Assembly: GCF_923079645.1 (NCBI RefSeq)
Contig: NZ_CAKLPY010000001.1
Coordinates: 2,211,185-2,275,184, forward strand
Length of the DNA stretch: 64,000 nucleotides
Direction of reading: 5' to 3'
Origin: Emticicia aquatica
GTDB taxonomy: Bacteria; Bacteroidota; Bacteroidia; Cytophagales; Spirosomataceae
In this document: in pieces, positions 35,839 through 42,111 of the stretch
Numbering within the stretch: position 1 is the first letter of the stretch
How the letters are laid out: the number at the start of each line of letters is the position of its first letter
Position numbers and translations under genes: made by a program
The notes under the pieces: model-generated
Told to the model about the DNA's origin: nothing
Databases searched by the model: none
The model's input: the letters and a program-made list of their open reading frames with translations, nothing else

Positions 35839-36741
35839 TTAAAAACCTACAGTTAAATAAACAGCACATTGCGGTAGTATTTTTAATTCACCACCACCTA
35901 AATTTTGTACAATTGGTTCTTGAAAAGTAAAACCAGTAGATATTTTACGATAATACGCTTGAAATCCTATACTTCCCAGTAACGAATAGCCACCTGTTAG
36001 AGAGTTAAGTTTACCTTCTTTATGGTCTTTAAATCCATAGTCAATTGTTGTTCCGACATTTGGCATTATCGAAAAACTACCCCAGTTTTTTGTATAAAAC
36101 ATTGTTATTGACGCATTTACACGATTCCCAAAACGATAATGTTCATTACTTTTGGTCGAAAGTCTTCCACCGATTTCAGTGTTCAAACCAAACTTTTTAT
36201 ACCTAATAGTATGAATTGCACTGAGCAAAAAATCTGTACTACCTGTTCCCAATTGAAAATTTGGATTAACTTCTGCATCACTATATCCGTATTCAAACTT
36301 ACCTGTTGGCAGTTTAATTCCGCCACCAATCATCAAATTATGGTATAATCCAGATGTGTTTGTTGTGTCTAGAAACGTATTCAGCACATTATAATGAGCC
36401 AAAAGTAAAGCATCGCCAATACCACTTTTACTTGTCTTTGTACCCGAATAAAGCATTGTTTGTTGGTTGTCATTGTAAGGCAAAAAAGTCAATACTTGCA
36501 GTTTTTTTACAGGATAAAAGCGTCCCCAAACCTCAAGGGTTTGGTATTCTTCTTTTGTTTTCAATAATTGGCTATTTAAGTGCGAGTCAAATGTGCGGAT
36601 GCGGTATCGCATTCCAACAAACTGTGTACCCGAACGAGGCAAAAGCCCAACAAAAGCACTACCATTTGAACAACCGCATAAGTCACAAGCTGCTGCTGAT
36701 AAACGATTCATAATCAACAGTATAAGTAGTATTTTCTTCAT
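35839..36741 (-). CDS. Outer-membrane beta-barrel with N-terminal CDLCGCS motif
   Basis: 300 aa. A signal peptide (MKKILLILLIMNRLSAAA) is followed at once by CDLCGCSNGSAFVGLLPRSG, three Cys within six residues. The rest alternates aromatic and polar residues as in a 10-14-strand beta-barrel (TQFVGMRYRIRTFDSH, LPTGKFEYGYSDAEVNPNF) and ends in an aromatic residue (AVYLTVGF), an outer-membrane insertion mark. Proteins with this Cys motif and barrel occur next to MbnP/di-heme genes in Bacteroidota, so it may be a metal-binding porin. It is the last gene of a four-gene run, 2 bases after the HMA gene. Role inferred from context. Confidence 0.8.
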   Translation of the reverse strand: MKKILLILLIMNRLSAAACDLCGCSNGSAFVGLLPRSGTQFVGMRYRIRTFDSHLNSQLLKTKEEYQTLEVWGRFYPVKKLQVLTFLPYNDNQQTMLYSGTKTSKSGIGDALLLAHYNVLNTFLDTTNTSGLYHNLMIGGGIKLPTGKFEYGYSDAEVNPNFQLGTGSTDFLLSAIHTIRYKKFGLNTEIGGRLSTKSNEHYRFGNRVNASITMFYTKNWGSFSIMPNVGTTIDYGFKDHKEGKLNSLTGGYSLLGSIGFQAYYRKISTGFTFQEPIVQNLGGGELKILPQCAVYLTVGF

Positions 36742-36743
36742 AA

Positions 36744-37091
36744 TTATTTACAAATTTTCACATCCATTAAGCAACAATCTCTTATTTGCTCTCTTTTATA
36801 TACATCTGCTCGCAATTCGTCAGCATCGTAGCCAATTGAAACGATATATTTCTTTATTCTTTCTGACGTAGTTCTGCTAGAATCATATTTGATTGTTATT
36901 AATTTTTGAGAAACATCAACTACTACATCTTTCACGCCTTTTTCAAAAATAATATTTCTACCCAAATTGTATTTGCATCTATCACAGACCCTGCTTGTAT
37001 GAATAGTACATTCAGCAGGCTTATCAAAGGCACTCGCATAAACACCTGATAATGATAGTGTTAACGTAGAAATAAAATCTTGGCGATTCAT
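36744..37091 (-). CDS. Exported heavy-metal-associated (HMA-like) domain protein
   Basis: 115 aa. A probable signal peptide (ISTLTLSLSGVYASA) precedes an HMA/ferredoxin-like fold: SRVCDRCKYNLGRNIIFEKG carries the metal CxxC (CDRC), followed by VVVDVSQKLITIKYDSS and IKKYIVSIGYDADEL. This is the order of copper chaperones, but with SRV in place of the usual GMT before the first Cys. Two more Cys pairs occur at the C-terminus (RDCCLMDVKIC), so extra copper sites are possible. The gene lies between the YHS (8 bases) and barrel (2 bases) genes in one operon. Confidence 0.83.
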   Translation of the reverse strand: MNRQDFISTLTLSLSGVYASAFDKPAECTIHTSRVCDRCKYNLGRNIIFEKGVKDVVVDVSQKLITIKYDSSRTTSERIKKYIVSIGYDADELRADVYKREQIRDCCLMDVKICK

Positions 37092-37099
37092 AAAACTTC

Positions 37100-37354
37100 T
37101 TAGTTCTTGATATATTTATCTGGATTTTTCACAAAACTTTCTTTACATGATTCACCGCAAAAACCGTACGTATTATCTTTATGTTTAAAGGTTATTTTAG
37201 TATTTTTTGCTACTTTCATGTGACAAACAGGGTCTTGCGATTTTACCTCTTTTTCAGCAATTTTCTTGTCTTTTTGTGCTGGTTTGTCTTCTTGGGCATA
37301 AACAGAAAAGCTAACGAATAAGACAAAAAGAGAGGTAATCAATTGAGTTTTCAT
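37100..37354 (-). CDS. Exported YHS-domain protein
   Basis: 84 aa. A signal peptide (LFVLFVSFSVYAQ) and a Lys-rich linker lead to a YHS domain: SQDPVCHMKVAKN, HKDNTYGFCGESCKESFVKN and PDKYIKN. The Cys residues of PVCHM and FCGESC are the expected metal ligands; His replaces the usual Gly after the first Cys. YHS domains bind copper or other soft metals and are often fused to CopA-type ATPases. Here the domain stands alone in the periplasm next to an HMA protein and a PepSY protein. Confidence 0.88.
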   Translation of the reverse strand: MKTQLITSLFVLFVSFSVYAQEDKPAQKDKKIAEKEVKSQDPVCHMKVAKNTKITFKHKDNTYGFCGESCKESFVKNPDKYIKN

Positions 37355-37361
37355 ATTATTT

Positions 37362-38462
37362 TTAAATTTTATTTGTTTTTACTTTTCGTCTCCACCAAAG
37401 CATAAAGCCCGTAATGGCTAAAAAACCAGGGGTTAATCCAAGAATTACGTAAAGAATTTTGACTGAAATTCCGCCATAATTTCCAACATGAAGCGGGAAA
37501 AACAAGGCTTCTACTTTATCCCAAAATGTTAAATCACTGAATCGACCAATATTTAGGAATTCGCCTGTATTAGCATCAAATCTTACCACATTTCCACCTG
37601 CAAACATTAGGTTTTGGCCTTTCAGATTACCACGAACACTAAATTTTTTCTCAGGCTGCGTGGGTAAATACACATAACTTGGAACTAAATCAGGCATTTT
37701 TTCAAGACTTTCGACATACATTTTATCAAGCGATACCTTCACCAAAGTATTATTTGGAGTCGGGATTGTTTCTTTTTTCCACGTTTCAGCTTCAAATGCA
37801 AATAAATTCATCCAAAAACCAGTAAAAAACACAATCACATTAAGCAAAAGAGACCAAACTCCTACAACTCGATGTAAATCAGAGCTTAACATTCGCCAGT
37901 TTTTGGTTTTGATTTTTACTTTGAAAGTCAATACTTTCCAAATAAATTTTCTGTAAACAATAAAACCAGTGATGATAGAAATGAGCATCGTCAGTCCAAA
38001 AATGGCGGCTAATGCTGCCCCAGGCATTCCAAGATGAAATGAAAAATGAAATTCAAAAATCCATTCAATCCAACCAACTTCCAAATCATCGCTTCGCCCT
38101 GAACGCAATATTTCACCTGAATATTGGTTAATATTTATCGCTCCTAAATCATAAGATTCTAAGCGAGCATCGTTCAAATAGAGTCTAAAATGATAAGATT
38201 GGTCCTTTTCTGCCAATGGATTTAGCCAAGCAATTCCGTCTAAATTTTGGTATTTATTTGTAATAATTTGATACAAACTATCCAGCGGAAGTTTTTTCTC
38301 CTCAGGCTTGACAGTCAAAACTTTATGATAAATAATCTCATCAAGTTCATCCTTGAAAATTAAAATCGAGCCACTAAGCCCCAACAGCAGAAGAAATATT
38401 CCAGTGATTAGTCCGAACCAACTATGTATGCTAAAAAGTAAGCGTTTGAATTTGTTGTTCAT
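37362..38462 (-). CDS. PepSY-associated transmembrane protein
   Basis: 366 aa. Four membrane helices: IHSWFGLITGIFLLLLGLSG near the N-terminus, GMPGAALAAIFGLTMLISII, LHRVVGVWSLLLNVIVFFTG and a last one after VKILYVILGLTPGF. Periplasmic PepSY domains sit between helices 1-2 and 3-4. Conserved His residues at helix ends (IHSWFG, FHLGMPG, LHRVVG, PLHVGNYGG) fit heme or metal reductase roles proposed for this family, which is usually linked to siderophore or copper uptake. It is the first gene of the PepSY-YHS-HMA-barrel run, with its own -7 box. Confidence 0.9.
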   Translation of the reverse strand: MNNKFKRLLFSIHSWFGLITGIFLLLLGLSGSILIFKDELDEIIYHKVLTVKPEEKKLPLDSLYQIITNKYQNLDGIAWLNPLAEKDQSYHFRLYLNDARLESYDLGAININQYSGEILRSGRSDDLEVGWIEWIFEFHFSFHLGMPGAALAAIFGLTMLISIITGFIVYRKFIWKVLTFKVKIKTKNWRMLSSDLHRVVGVWSLLLNVIVFFTGFWMNLFAFEAETWKKETIPTPNNTLVKVSLDKMYVESLEKMPDLVPSYVYLPTQPEKKFSVRGNLKGQNLMFAGGNVVRFDANTGEFLNIGRFSDLTFWDKVEALFFPLHVGNYGGISVKILYVILGLTPGFLAITGFMLWWRRKVKTNKI

Positions 38463-38503
38463 ATTTTCTACATTTCATTATACTTTAATAGAATCTTGGT
38501 AAA

Positions 38504-38511
38504 CAAAAATA
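38504..38511 (-). promoter_or_regulatory. -7 element (TATTTTTG) for the PepSY-YHS-HMA-barrel operon
   Basis: The minus strand matches TAnnTTTG 42 bases before the ATG at 38462, in the 100-base gap after the di-heme gene. It suggests an internal start within the copper block. Confidence 0.5.
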
Positions 38512-38564
38512 GCTATTTGTGCTTAAAGTGACTTTCATGAATCTTGATAAAAAAATCTTTAGTA

Positions 38565-39608
38565 TTACGGTGCTGCAAATCTTTTATTTTTCAGAAACTC
38601 ATCATCTGTCAACGTTTTCAAAAAAGCAATGAGTTTTTTTTGCTCATCGGCCGTTGTTTGAATACCTAATTTTTGTCCATTTTTAAGTGCAGGGTCAAGT
38701 GTTGGCACATCCAAAACAGATTCAGAATAATGTTTCAGCACAGCTTCGAGCGTATAAAAACGGCCATCATGCATGTAAGGTGCAGTTACTGAAATATTTC
38801 TGAGACTCGGAACTTTAAATTTGTACTTATCTGAGTCTTTTTGTGTAATTCGATGCCTTCCAGTATCATCAATATTATAAACGGCAATACCATTATTTCG
38901 ATAACTTTGGTCGGTAAAAAGTTCACCTGAATGACACGAAGCACATTTTTGCTTGAAAATCCACATTCCTGCCAATTCTTCCTCTGTCAATATTCCACCT
39001 GTTTCTTTTCTGACGTATTTATCATACCGAGAATTGGCCGAAACCAAAGAAGTCATAAATTGTGAAAGTGCCTTCAAAAAACGCTCAGTTGTGATCTCCT
39101 TACTTCCGTAAGCTTTCTGGAAAAGTGCAGTGTATTTTTCTTTTTTACAAAGTTTTGCTAACACATTTCCCAATTTTTCATCCATTTCAACTGGATTTTC
39201 AATCGGAGCAATCGAAAATAGGTCTAAATCAAAAACACCACCATCCCAGAAAAACTCTTTCTGAAATGCCATATTCTGAATCGGCGGAGCATTTCGGATA
39301 CCTCTAAGATTATCAATTCCATGACTAACATCGTGTCCATGATGCGTAAAACCTGAAGGTTGACTGTGGCATTCGGCACATGAAATCGTTCCATCTCTTG
39401 ATAAATCACCTTCATAAAATAATGCTCTACCCAATTCAAAACCATTTTCGGTAATAGGATTTTTAGCAAAATCATATACAGGATTTGGAAAATTAGCTGG
39501 AGCCGAAAATAACTTGTCAGGTGCAATATCTTGGGAGTTGTCATTTTTACATGCAACTCCCAGATAAACAGCACTACTAACTACCATAGCTAGGATTTTA
39601 AATTTCAT
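38565..39608 (-). CDS. Di-heme cytochrome c peroxidase family (MbnH/MauG-like) lipoprotein
   Basis: 347 aa with a lipobox (LGVAC, Cys20). Two c-type heme sites are present: CAECH (Cys77, Cys80, His81) and CASCH (Cys222, Cys225, His226). Other family segments are ELGRALFYEGDLSRDGTISC, FWDGGVFDLDL and FKVPSLRNISVTAPYMHDGR. In the MbnH/MauG group such enzymes store oxidising power in a bis-Fe(IV) state and modify a residue in a partner protein. The start codon overlaps the stop of the MbnP-like gene (TAATG at 39606-39610), which indicates translational coupling. A plain peroxidase remains possible; context favours MbnH. Confidence 0.9.
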   Translation of the reverse strand: MKFKILAMVVSSAVYLGVACKNDNSQDIAPDKLFSAPANFPNPVYDFAKNPITENGFELGRALFYEGDLSRDGTISCAECHSQPSGFTHHGHDVSHGIDNLRGIRNAPPIQNMAFQKEFFWDGGVFDLDLFSIAPIENPVEMDEKLGNVLAKLCKKEKYTALFQKAYGSKEITTERFLKALSQFMTSLVSANSRYDKYVRKETGGILTEEELAGMWIFKQKCASCHSGELFTDQSYRNNGIAVYNIDDTGRHRITQKDSDKYKFKVPSLRNISVTAPYMHDGRFYTLEAVLKHYSESVLDVPTLDPALKNGQKLGIQTTADEQKKLIAFLKTLTDDEFLKNKRFAAP

Positions 39609-40417
39609 TATTCTTTGTCATTATGAACATGGTCAACAATGAAACTTTGAGCATAATTGTCAGCAATTGCTGTACCCGCCGCAGGAGCATGCACCATATA
39701 CGATGTTGCAATACTAATTTTATTTTTTGCACTAAAAACCTTTGAAACATCATTAATTATATGAATTTCTGGAGCAATATCTTTTCTTACGGTTGCTGAC
39801 GAAGCTAAAGAAAATTTAAAAGTTTTTAGGTTATTTGGTGTTGTGGCAGTTCGACCACCAAAACCGCCAATATGAAACTCATATTGAGTCATTCCCATCA
39901 TGTTATTTGCTGGAATGGCTGCTGATTTTCCTTCCATTTTGAAGAAAATATAACCCGAATTCCACGACCAATACATATTATCTGCACCATAAGATGCAGG
40001 GTCAAGAACGCCAGTTCGTTGACTTACATCAGAAATAGATTTTAAACTATCAACGCCAATCACATAACTCAATTCGGTATAATTACCCGCTGGAACATCT
40101 TTTAAAGTTACAACCAAAGAACTTTCGTCTGATTGACGAATCAAAAAGTAGTCATTCAGAAAATTCACAACTTCACCATTCTCATTTTTCAAAGAAATAT
40201 TTGATACAAAATAATTAAGTTTAGTTACTGTAAAATCTTCTCCCAACACATTTGTAGCTTTGGTTGTTCCTAGAACTAATTTTTGGTCGCCAATTCGGTT
40301 ATCAAACTCAATGCTAATTGAATTTTTATCATTTGGCCCAATTTCCTCTTCTTTTTGACAAGAAATAATTAATACCGTTGCGAAGATTGCTAAGAATAAT
40401 TTTGATAAGTTTTTCAT
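39608..40417 (-). CDS. MbnP-like copper-binding lipoprotein
   Basis: 269 aa, lipobox LIISC (Cys20). The order VTKLNYFVSNISLKNENGE, TGVLDPASYGADNMYWSWNS, GYIFFKMEGKS, YEFHIGGFGG and the end SFIVDHVHNDKE is the MbnP-like pattern. Trp150 and Trp152 lie in MYWSWNSGY, and His182, His263 and His265 are candidate ligands. In characterised MbnP proteins a conserved Trp is oxidised to kynurenine by the partner MbnH, creating a tight copper site; which Trp here corresponds is inference. It has a strong promoter with a very short leader and is coupled to the di-heme gene. Confidence 0.9.
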   Translation of the reverse strand: MKNLSKLFLAIFATVLIISCQKEEEIGPNDKNSISIEFDNRIGDQKLVLGTTKATNVLGEDFTVTKLNYFVSNISLKNENGEVVNFLNDYFLIRQSDESSLVVTLKDVPAGNYTELSYVIGVDSLKSISDVSQRTGVLDPASYGADNMYWSWNSGYIFFKMEGKSAAIPANNMMGMTQYEFHIGGFGGRTATTPNNLKTFKFSLASSATVRKDIAPEIHIINDVSKVFSAKNKISIATSYMVHAPAAGTAIADNYAQSFIVDHVHNDKE

Positions 40418-40433
40418 GAGTTTTAACTAAAAA

Positions 40434-40461
40434 CAAATATAAGTATGTAAACCACGGCCAA
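40434..40461 (-). promoter_or_regulatory. Promoter of the mbnP-like/di-heme operon
   Basis: The minus strand reads TTG (40459-40461), 17 bases, then TATATTTG (40434-40441), a full Bacteroidota sigma-A promoter. Only 16 bases separate the -7 box from the ATG at 40417. Confidence 0.78.
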
Positions 40462-40618
40462 TAAACCGTAGCATTACAAATAATTGATAATGAATGATTT
40501 ACAAATAAATCAAATAGCTATTAGAAACTATTTGAAAAAAATGCATAAAGAAAATACGTAAAAAACTACAAAGTTAGGAAGCTAACTTTTGCAGCATTAT
40601 GCAATAAAAGGGAAGAAA

Positions 40619-41017
40619 TCAGCCTAAACAAGGTGGACGAAAAAGAGAAGTAGCAAGCGTAAAATAATGGCGTTGCTTATAAATAAATAAATTTTGAGTC
40701 GATGAAACTACACTTGTGAATGTTTGTGAGAAGACAAAGTTTTCATGATGGAAGGTTTCTTCTAAAAGTTTCTTGAAACTTTGTTCTTGGCGGTCGGCTT
40801 CTTTGCTCGCTTTGTCTTCGGCCACTTTATGAAGCTGTTTGGCCAAATAACATTTACCATTACATTGCAACTCAGGCTTAAAGCGGTTTTCGCAGAGATT
40901 TTTAACGATGTAATCTTTGTTCAATTCAAAATCAAGATAAACCACAGGCACTACCAGTATGCGTACACTGGTAAGCAAAAGCAGAAAAACCGCCAAGCCT
41001 CGTTTACTATTTGACAT
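40619..41017 (-). CDS. Small Cys-containing membrane protein near the mbnP-like gene
   Basis: 132 aa from the ATG at 41017 (another ATG at 41026 lies right at the predicted transcription start). One N-terminal hydrophobic helix (GLAVFLLLLTSVRILVVPVV) is followed by NLCENRFKPELQCNGKC and YLAKQL, a three-Cys block in a short loop, then a charged helix (EDKASKEADRQEQSFKKLLE). The C-terminus ends HYFTLATSLFRPPCLG. This family is recurrent in Bacteroidota upstream of metal-related genes, but I know no function. Metal binding through the Cys block is inference. Confidence 0.78.
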   Translation of the reverse strand: MSNSKRGLAVFLLLLTSVRILVVPVVYLDFELNKDYIVKNLCENRFKPELQCNGKCYLAKQLHKVAEDKASKEADRQEQSFKKLLEETFHHENFVFSQTFTSVVSSTQNLFIYKQRHYFTLATSLFRPPCLG

Positions 41018-41030
41018 TAAATTCATGCTG

Positions 41031-41056
41031 CAAAATTATGCCACGTTTTATATCAA
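41031..41056 (-). promoter_or_regulatory. Promoter of the small Cys-protein gene
   Basis: The minus strand has TTG (41054-41056), 15 bases, then TAATTTTG (41031-41038). Its closeness to the gene favours the ATG at 41017. Confidence 0.55.
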
Positions 41057-41070
41057 ACCTATGATTATCA

Positions 41071-42111
41071 TCATTTTTTTAACGTACCGAGCAGCACTTT
41101 ATTTTCAAAAACAGTTCCAATTAATAATTTATCACCAAAAACCGCCCCAACACTAGAGCCAGAAACTGGTTTTCCATCATTCAAATAAATGCTTTTCAAC
41201 GTAAAATCACTTTTAGCTTTGTAGGCAATTTTAATGATTTCTGAAGGCGAAGGCTTTGAATGGTCTTTTGAATGAGCCAGAAAAGCCAATAATTTCGGGT
41301 GGCAACCTACCCAAAGATTCCCAACTTCGTCGAGTTCAATATTATCTGCACCTCTGACTGGAATTTCATCTGTTTTAGTCAATACTCCCGTCGTAATATC
41401 TCGGTCAAAAACTATAATTTTTTGTCCTGTTGTTGCTGAAGTAAATAATTTTTTACCATCAAGACTTACATTTACTCCATTGGCATACAAAAATCCGCTT
41501 GCAAGAATGCTTGCTTTTCCTCCATCAAAATAACAAACATTTCCTGAAGCAATTTGTAATAAATCCTTTTTTGCTCGCCAATTTGAAATTTCTTCATCGT
41601 GGTCATTCGTTACATAAAACTTTCGCTCACCAACACCAACAACGTCATTTGGACTTACAAATAAAGGGTCGGTAATACTTTCACGGTGAATGAGTGTACT
41701 ATCTGTAAATTGAAAAATTTCGATAAAATCCCCTACTTTTCGGTGATTAACCACAAATAAAATTTTGTCTCCATTAAGTGCTTTATACAAACTAATTCCG
41801 TGTGGATGAAAATCGTCAAAAGGCAACTTATCAGTTAATTTGATCGGTTTTGGAGAATTTTCATTGAGATTGAGTAGATAAATTGCTCCATTTGGTAGAA
41901 AAGGAGAAAAATCACTTGCAGAAATCAACGCTAAACCTTTCGCTTTATCAATAGTAATATCTTCTGCTCCATGAAAACCATTAATTTCGACAGTTTTTCC
42001 ATCAAAATGTGGTTCGATTTTAGTAAAAAAGCCCGCATTTGTAAGTGTTTTTCCTACAAAAAAAACAATGATTACGACAATACCTATTACTATTTTAAGC
42101 CAAGTTTTCAT
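41071..42111 (-). CDS. Paraoxonase/arylesterase-like (SMP-30 type) lactonase
   Basis: 346 aa, six-bladed propeller with an N-terminal membrane anchor (KIVIGIVVIIVFFVGKTL). Family marks are GFHGAEDITIDKAKGLALIS, DFHPHGISLYKALNG, SPNDVVGVGERKFYVTNDHD (the Ca-binding SPND and NDH motifs of PON1) and ANGVNVSLDGKKLFTSATT. PON-like enzymes hydrolyse lactones and some esters outside the cytosol. The anchor suggests a periplasmic face. No quorum or lactone genes are adjacent. Confidence 0.88.
   Translation of the reverse strand: MKTWLKIVIGIVVIIVFFVGKTLTNAGFFTKIEPHFDGKTVEINGFHGAEDITIDKAKGLALISASDFSPFLPNGAIYLLNLNENSPKPIKLTDKLPFDDFHPHGISLYKALNGDKILFVVNHRKVGDFIEIFQFTDSTLIHRESITDPLFVSPNDVVGVGERKFYVTNDHDEEISNWRAKKDLLQIASGNVCYFDGGKASILASGFLYANGVNVSLDGKKLFTSATTGQKIIVFDRDITTGVLTKTDEIPVRGADNIELDEVGNLWVGCHPKLLAFLAHSKDHSKPSPSEIIKIAYKAKSDFTLKSIYLNDGKPVSGSSVGAVFGDKLLIGTVFENKVLLGTLKK

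Follow-up and report, generated by a model that had tools for sequence, protein, structure and literature searches.

Copper import across the outer membrane, and the control of this import, are to our knowledge poorly known in Bacteroidota. The closest described relatives of the genes considered here are the MbnP/MbnH pairs of methanotrophs (structures 7l6g and 6e1c; NCBIfam models TIGR04052 and TIGR04039), in which the precedent for MbnP is Cu(I). The role of such pairs outside methanobactin operons has been called unclear (PMC3621798). A copper protein, with a kynurenine in the case of MopE, also has a di-heme neighbor in MopE/CorA with SACCP/CorB, to which MbnP bears no marked sequence similarity according to the same article (PMC3621798). 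Here we describe a cluster of seven minus-strand genes, at positions 35839..41056 of a 64,000-nt stretch (below, the window) of the Emticicia aquatica contig NZ_CAKLPY010000001.1 (assembly GCF_923079645.1), in which an MbnP/MbnH-type pair stands together with a small cysteine-containing protein (below, the small Cys protein) and a predicted outer-membrane β-barrel.

Three further systems are relevant to the comparison. In Proteobacteria, the copper-sensing leader CruR heads copper operons of TonB receptors and PepSY proteins, such as the CruR-CrtA-CrpH operon of Bordetella, and switches its operon off with copper; MbnPH-like genes also occur in CruR-headed operons (PMC9426467). The leader CutF, placed in the wider CruR group (DUF2946), has the opposite sign, since copper raises its target, a multicopper oxidase (PMC9973294). 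According to a survey of RAPP/RGPP leaders, copper-related ones are found in various lineages, excepting groups such as Bacteroidota, and TonB-related ones throughout Gram-negatives (PMC12992588). Outer-membrane copper import has been proposed for the receptor NosA, an orthologue of OprC, as a supply for N2O reductase, and a later study saw no effect of nosA on NosZ (PMC8610252). Finally, the barrel, as modeled, resembles the FapF and COG4313 channels.

The four genes named above, encoding the small Cys protein, MbnP, MbnH, and the barrel, form a core that recurs in many Bacteroidota. On balance, we consider it probable that this gene set captures scarce copper at the cell surface and carries it to the periplasm, and that it is switched by the small Cys protein, a predicted copper-sensing leader. 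Copper acquisition, one of the roles suggested in a first-pass annotation of the window, is the best reading because the position behind the small Cys gene can also be occupied by TonB receptors and an OprC homologue, and because the layout of the predicted leader is CruR-like. Compared with the literature covered, drawn from one open-licence library, four things are new: a core of four genes in Bacteroidota, the coupling of three MbnP histidines to the barrel, the predicted leader, and the exchange of MbnP sets for TonB receptors behind it.

The conserved core and its MbnP/MbnH-type pair

In 25 named relatives of the window locus, the nearest of which are Emticicia species, MbnH stands beside MbnP in all cases, accompanied by the small Cys gene in 24 and by the barrel in 23, and this recurrence argues against a chance assembly. 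The first-pass annotation had treated all seven genes as one system; as a unit this set was rejected, being complete in a single named relative (L003), with the YHS gene present in 10 of the 25 loci, the HMA gene in two, and a PepSY gene between MbnH and the barrel in seven. Beyond the named relatives, 20 MbnP loci were hand-picked, so as to span families, from the 78 MbnP-bearing genomes of a 296-genome phylum sample. MbnH adjoins MbnP in all 20, the small Cys gene is present in 15, and all four core genes in 13. Among 150 genomes of the window's family, MbnP was found in 112, the barrel in 69, and the small Cys gene in 130.

The window MbnP belongs to Pfam family PF20243 (181.2 bits; cut-off, 27) and has a predicted MbnP fold. 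Both tryptophans of its WxW motif are invariant in the 36 MbnP rows aligned, the window's included, and M148 is present in 34 of them; the segment M148-Y-W150-S-W152 aligns with M-A-W-N-W of 7l6g. H182, conserved in 35/36 family rows and 20/20 phylum rows, aligns with the histidine of the 7l6g HVG motif. We take W150 to be the residue that would be modified, as the first Trp of WxW in line with precedent for MbnP. By this alignment, W150 is the predicted kynurenine site, and M148 and H182 are the predicted copper ligands. The methanotroph and Bacteroidota pairs thus have in common the MbnP fold, the WxW motif with its neighboring Met, the His of HxG, a MauG-like enzyme with an axial Tyr, and adjacent overlapping genes, as also in Methylocystis parvus (L027). 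They differ in that both Bacteroidota proteins are predicted lipoproteins, and that MbnP lacks the four-Cys motif (46.3 bits against the 140 required by the TIGR04052 equivalog; no Cys follows C20 in the window protein) and has a surface-export signal, three extra histidines, and a barrel partner. A search of the window genome (94% complete) with PF05114, the MbnB family, gave no match, which bears out the earlier remark that no methanobactin genes are visible.

The di-heme enzyme matches Pfam CCP_MauG (182.2 bits), and its best NCBIfam model is TIGR04039, at 230.5 bits, yet under the equivalog cut-off of 362.85. Both CxxCH sites are invariant in the alignment of these enzymes (A2), and the axial position is occupied by Tyr in all 25 rows as well as in one MbnH and two MauG references, as opposed to Met in four classical peroxidases; two other references (L036, L037) have His. 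The enzyme therefore shows the MbnH combination of two CxxCH sites and an axial Tyr, and not the axial Met on the high-potential heme that marks bacterial cytochrome c peroxidases.

It might nonetheless be a peroxidase that scavenges hydrogen peroxide, with MbnP as an unrelated neighbor. Searched as a single sequence with phmmer, the enzyme finds three peroxidase entries ahead of MbnH, and the profile, whose best solved match is MbnH (6e1c, 227.9 bits), places a di-heme peroxidase close behind (220.8 bits). A grouping of the enzyme with peroxidases rather than MbnH, named in the first-pass annotation as grounds for giving up its interpretation, was neither established nor rejected by the tree. 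The Bacteroidota enzymes form their own clade, nearest to MbnH without firm support (74 in the Shimodaira-Hasegawa-like approximate likelihood ratio test, SH-aLRT), and a grouping with Met-type peroxidases was not rejected by the approximately unbiased (AU) test (p 0.141), nor were two others (p 0.176 and 0.275). A first tree with 12 plasmid references had suffered from long branches and gave no resolution; the rebuilt one, with eight MbnH-type proteins added and L035, L036, L037, and the Bacteroidota row L009 8246-9340 left out, did not resolve the question either. Given the axial Tyr in 25/25 rows, the MbnP fold match, and the adjacency to MbnP in all 25 named and 20 phylum loci, we regard the peroxidase explanation as very improbable, and the MbnP/MbnH-type pair stands on its Pfam families, best models, fold match, and aligned WxW, Met, and His residues. 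In Methylocystis parvus (L027 4001-5161), the MbnH gene beside mbnA is annotated as "methanobactin export MATE transporter MbnM", a label shared by several other named proteins that looks like a propagated misannotation.

The mature window MbnP would start with CQKEEE. This fits the optimal surface-lipoprotein export signal of Capnocytophaga, C-X-K-(D/E)2-X, of which two other Bacteroidetes have acidic variants (PMC5080379). Two or more acidic residues occupy positions +2 to +7 in 25 of 27 MbnPs with a lipobox, compared with 6 of 22 MbnHs and 13 of 62 other lipobox-like open reading frames (ORFs) of the same loci (Fisher p 1.5e-10 for MbnPs against the other ORFs); nine MbnP and 15 MbnH rows without a lipobox by the pattern used were left out of these counts. 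A stricter export pattern fits 11 MbnPs, two MbnHs, and one other lipobox-like ORF.

Three histidines and the barrel

The barrel was modeled with about 12 strands (predicted local distance difference test, pLDDT, 78; predicted template modeling score, pTM, 0.76). A Foldseek search with this model retrieved FapF (5o67; E 7.9e-11) as the best match and a COG4313 channel (4rl8; E 3.3e-8), at approximately 13-15% identity. What separates the window-type barrel from these channels, besides this low identity, is its N-terminus and its neighborhood. A CDxCGC motif directly follows the signal peptide in all 22 rows aligned, with C19, C22, G23, and C24 invariant, a stretch modeled in the window protein with pLDDT below 50. 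At least 69 of the 72 full-length barrels in the family genomes are located within 6 kb of MbnP, all on the same strand, and for two of the three others (G032, G033), the position of the genome's MbnP fell outside the matches listed. The arrangement also differs from NosA/OprC, as a small barrel that is not predicted to hold a TonB plug is combined with a separate MbnP lipoprotein.

Three MbnP histidines, H219, H263, and H265, behave in the family as an all-or-none set, all being present in 26 of 36 rows and none in the other 10. In the 20 phylum loci, which represent other families, a first C-terminal pattern, [DE]H[VILF]H, was found in 9 of 13 barrel-linked MbnPs and in none of the seven without a barrel (Fisher p 0.005). 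The aligned columns, examined after this first test, have the three histidines in 13/13 and 0/7, respectively; individual histidines occur among the phylum loci too, with two of the three in L056 and L057 and one in L052. In the named loci, the number of barrels equals the number of three-histidine MbnPs locus by locus, except in L017, which is cut by a contig end. For seven of the ten family MbnPs that lack the histidines, tandem arrays nevertheless place a barrel at most 6 kb downstream. Because the three histidines co-occur with the barrel, we predict that they form a second metal site serving it.

Tandem copies of MbnP or MbnH were observed in L004, L005, L009, L011, L012, L016, L022, and L025. 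The additional tandem MbnPs lack the three histidines (L009 also has two full sets), and barrels and three-histidine MbnPs stay at one to one.

The small Cys protein and the slot behind its gene

The small Cys protein has no Pfam family over the cut-off. In the 21 rows of its alignment (A4), the columns C45, C55, G57, and C59 and the C-terminal Pro-Pro are invariant. Over a wider set of relatives, the pattern C-x8-10-C-x-G-x-C is found in 60/61 and Pro-Pro, 2-7 residues from the end, in 61/61, the latter count not being independent of the search, whose profile includes Pro-Pro; among 346 other assigned proteins, Pro-Pro occurs in the last 10 residues of six. One further match, in L097, lacks the Pro-Pro end. 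The distance from the last Cys to Pro-Pro is 64-71 residues despite a variable spacer, a range wider than the one or two of CruR. The gap behind the gene is usually long, 201 bp in the window, with a median of 116 bp to MbnP (n = 38, range 12-346) and 149 bp to the TonB receptor TonBc27 (n = 17, range 18-525), as compared with medians of 2 bp for MbnP-MbnH and -4 bp for MbnH-barrel.

An export segment, a Cys motif, a C-terminal Pro-Pro, the spacing, and the gap are all shared with CruR and the CutF leaders. On the other hand, none of 21 small Cys members matched DUF2946 (PF11162) at E <= 10 with HMMER filters on, the cysteines are not arranged as CXXC or CxxxC, and Pro-Pro mostly follows FH or FR rather than the RA of the CruR RAPP end. 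Since the layout is that of CruR, the small Cys protein is probably a sensor or leader by analogy, and not the relay suggested before this comparison. The relay idea survives as an alternative in which the protein is a periplasmic copper chaperone and its Pro-Pro tail is structural. The invariant Cys motif behind a hydrophobic N-terminal segment and the presence of the protein at many copper-linked loci would suit a chaperone; the near-constant place of Pro-Pro relative to both the C-terminus and the last Cys, the usually long gap to the next gene, and the CruR layout would not, and we consider this alternative rather unlikely. One homologue, in L012 (6909-7307), has lost all three cysteines (HHKGKG) and kept Pro-Pro, and heads an MbnP-MbnH pair without the three histidines.

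As for the place of CruR at the head of TonB-receptor and PepSY copper operons, the small Cys gene precedes both TonB and MbnP sets but follows the nos genes at loci linked to N2O reductase, and in the window another gene ends 44 bp upstream of it. At six of the 25 named loci (L008, L018, L019, L021, L023, L024), the core is preceded, at 79-121 bp, by a nos cluster containing NosZ (907 bits; cut-off, 625), NosL, NosD, an ABC transporter, and a fasciclin protein; at a seventh, L014, a TonB-receptor set stands between the nos cluster and the core. NosZ scores over the cut-off in 36 of the 150 family genomes. MbnP lies within 12 kb of NosZ in at least nine of these, in 4 of 14 genera (0.16 expected), and the small Cys gene is near NosZ in at least 22, in 7 of 14 genera (0.22 expected). 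Seven of the nine MbnP-linked genomes were taken to be those of the seven nos-linked named loci; for one of them (G059, L023), the NosZ piece used is located at the end of a contig and is itself under the cut-off, with the rest on another contig. One genus (g13), in which the gene lies 2.7 kb off on the opposite strand, accounts for five of the 22 small Cys cases. According to the MbnH tree, which does not contain two Runella copies upstream of nosZ, the nos link requires three changes, at least two of them forced by well-supported branches. A phylum-wide rule was rejected: in the phylum sample (98 genomes with NosZ over the cut-off and 78 with MbnP, pairs compared by eye), one pair outside the family lies within 12 kb (G404, 9.5 kb) and another at 15 kb (G390), so the linkage is mostly that of the window's family.

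At the 22 nos loci with a small Cys gene, the slot behind the small Cys gene, counted as the first or second gene, holds a TonB receptor in 15 cases, an MbnP-MbnH pair in six, and both in tandem in one. The receptor in the slot of G034 is an OprC homologue (E 8.2e-38; TIGR01778 215 bits, cut-off 472), with ACPNRMD at the position of the CxxxM copper site described for OprC (PMC8610252). Elsewhere in the family, 52 of 150 small Cys genes have, among the matches listed, neither MbnP nor NosZ nearby. Twenty further small Cys genes were hand-picked, 18 from these 52 plus L084 and L093 (repeats of L010 and L016). A TonB receptor is first or second behind the gene in 14 of the 18, often with a PepSY or BNR protein, and a YHS gene follows in two; nothing readable follows in the remaining two. 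L084 and L093 have MbnP within 8 kb, and their small Cys genes are followed by a TonB receptor and PepSY, respectively. A BNR-repeat protein stands behind the slot receptor in 14 of the 16 nos loci with a TonB receptor (L060, L061, L063, L067-L077), and a CQCC motif was seen in the L025 copy of this protein.

These slot data bear on two alternatives. If the operon took up another metal or a chelate (iron, nickel, or a siderophore), TonBc27 would import the same substrate in the alternative slot. The one TonBc27 receptor examined (L060) has no copper signature, its best model being a siderophore receptor family, below the cut-off, and some PepSY proteins are ferrisiderophore reductases (PMC13038864). 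What points to copper is the OprC homologue with its CxxxM stretch, the Cu(I) precedent of MbnP, and the association with nos clusters, which produce a copper enzyme; another substrate is therefore quite improbable. Under the second alternative, the genes constitute a copper-defense module in which surplus copper is stored by MbnP, either periplasmically or on the cell surface, and the barrel serves as an exit for copper. The window copy is accompanied by HMA and YHS proteins, and the similarly laid-out leader CutF raises a multicopper oxidase with copper (PMC9973294). However, the slot holds TonB receptors and an importer homologue, copper silences the TonB-receptor operons led by CruR (PMC9426467), and no efflux pump was found among the cluster and flank proteins scanned. 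We thus judge defense improbable, slightly less so than import of another metal.

Proposed copper route and organization of the window locus

The analysis shows protein families and their predicted folds, the order of the genes, conserved residues, and co-occurrence; the chemical and regulatory steps that follow are proposals. At low copper, ribosomes would stall at the C-terminal Pro-Pro of the small Cys protein, and the downstream genes would stay transcribed; copper on the Cys motif would release the stall and turn them off, as in CruR. Because CutF has the opposite sign, this direction of control is only guessed from CruR. In the MbnP lipoprotein, whose N-terminus fits the surface-export signal, MbnH would, by homology, oxidize W150 to kynurenine and so generate a site for Cu(I) that includes M148 and H182. 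As co-occurrence suggests, the three additional histidines may then pass copper on to the barrel, to be received at the periplasmic face by its CDLCGC tail. PepSY, YHS, and HMA proteins would be optional helpers in reduction and periplasmic handling.

More tentatively, and with more doubt than assent, we suggest that Bacteroidota possess a TonB-receptor-free copper import, leading from a surface kynurenine MbnP through its three-histidine tail to a CDxCGC barrel, which is interchangeable with TonB receptors behind one convergent copper-sensing arrest peptide that governs outer-membrane copper uptake phylum-wide. The present analysis gives the MbnP/MbnH pair a testable role, that of a stand-in for a TonB receptor, beside N2O reductase genes in several genera. 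It also proposes a copper-responsive leader peptide for Bacteroidota and identifies a barrel that occurs jointly with a predicted second metal site.

Several observations weigh against the acquisition reading. Many MbnPs lack the partners (112 family genomes with MbnP against 69 with the barrel), and, among the matches listed, 72 of 150 MbnP places have a small Cys gene at 3 kb or less. The tree does not reject other groupings of MbnH (AU p 0.14-0.28), the window MbnP is without the four Cys of TIGR04052, and the surface signal is mostly missing from MbnH. The predicted leader has no DUF2946 homology by the above search, CutF responds to copper in the opposite way to CruR, and a lactonase-like gene lies on the same strand 44 bp upstream of the leader in the window. 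TonBc27, the common slot receptor, showed no copper signature in the copy examined. The nos link is indirect, as no NosZ match was found in the window genome (94% complete), and outside the family only G404 pairs NosZ with MbnP within 12 kb.

HMA and YHS domains occur in copper handling. Here, both proteins are accessory, HMA being rare. The PepSY_TM protein is a candidate periplasmic copper reductase by analogy with CrpH, the PepSY protein of the Bordetella operon, which is reported to support copper oxidases, possibly by reducing copper (PMC13038864).

The features of the cluster are listed in Table 1. All seven ORFs reported by the first-pass annotation were found in place, and its CAECH, CASCH, MYWSWNSGY, and VDHVHND motifs, TAATG overlap, and CDLCGCS N-terminus were confirmed in the sequence.

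Table 1. Features of the Emticicia aquatica cluster, in window positions
Feature	Position	Strand	Remark
Small Cys protein, 135 aa	40619..41026	-	CruR analogue, predicted to be a copper-sensing leader; no Pfam family over cut-off
Cys motif C45-x9-C55-x-G57-x-C59 of small Cys protein	40850..40894	-	Putative metal site
P131-P132 (LFRPPCLG) near C-terminus of small Cys protein	40631..40636	-	Putative ribosome-arrest motif
Intergenic gap, 201 bp, small Cys gene to mbnP-like gene	40418..40618	-	
MbnP-like lipoprotein, 269 aa	39608..40417	-	PF20243
Lipid Cys20 and QKEEE of MbnP-like protein	40343..40360	-	Fits C-X-K-(D/E)2-X surface-export signal
M148-Y-W150-S-W152 (WxW motif) of MbnP-like protein	39962..39976	-	W150 predicted kynurenine site; M148 predicted Cu ligand
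H182 (HxG motif) of MbnP-like protein	39872..39874	-	Predicted Cu ligand
H219 of MbnP-like protein	39761..39763	-	One of three all-or-none extra histidines
H263-V-H265 tail of MbnP-like protein	39623..39631	-	With H219, predicted second metal site coupled to barrel
MbnH/MauG-like di-heme enzyme, 347 aa, predicted lipoprotein	38565..39608	-	
CAECH heme site 1 of di-heme enzyme	39366..39380	-	C77, C80, H81 invariant
CASCH heme site 2 of di-heme enzyme	38931..38945	-	C222, C225, H226 invariant
Y294 of di-heme enzyme, axial-ligand position	38727..38729	-	Met there in classical bacterial peroxidases
PepSY_TM membrane protein	37362..38462	-	PF03929, 205.1 bits
YHS-domain protein, likely signal peptide	37100..37354	-	PF04945, 39.5 bits
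HMA-domain protein	36744..37091	-	PF00403, 31.4 bits
Predicted outer-membrane β-barrel, ~12 strands	35839..36741	-	Model and Foldseek; no Pfam family over cut-off
CDLCGC at predicted mature N-terminus of barrel	36670..36687	-	Putative metal relay site

The cluster end, 41056, is 30 bases past the point where the small Cys ORF has its first start codon. The mbnP and mbnH genes overlap by one base, mbnH and the PepSY gene are separated by 102 bp, and the remaining gaps are 2-8 bp. The window genome has one match each for MbnP, the barrel, and the small Cys protein, and one COX2-family match. The ten flanking ORFs scanned have ordinary functions (peptidase, helicase, dehydratase, etc.), with no copper genes among them. 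The lactonase-like gene (sugar-lactonase/arylesterase-like, 41071-42111, minus strand) also precedes the small Cys gene in L002 and L003 and was not found at the other named loci. The core of L009, L012, and L016 has in its vicinity a small protein, c24, which ends in PPRFV in L012, and two multi-helix proteins, c25 and c26, that contain cytochrome c domains.

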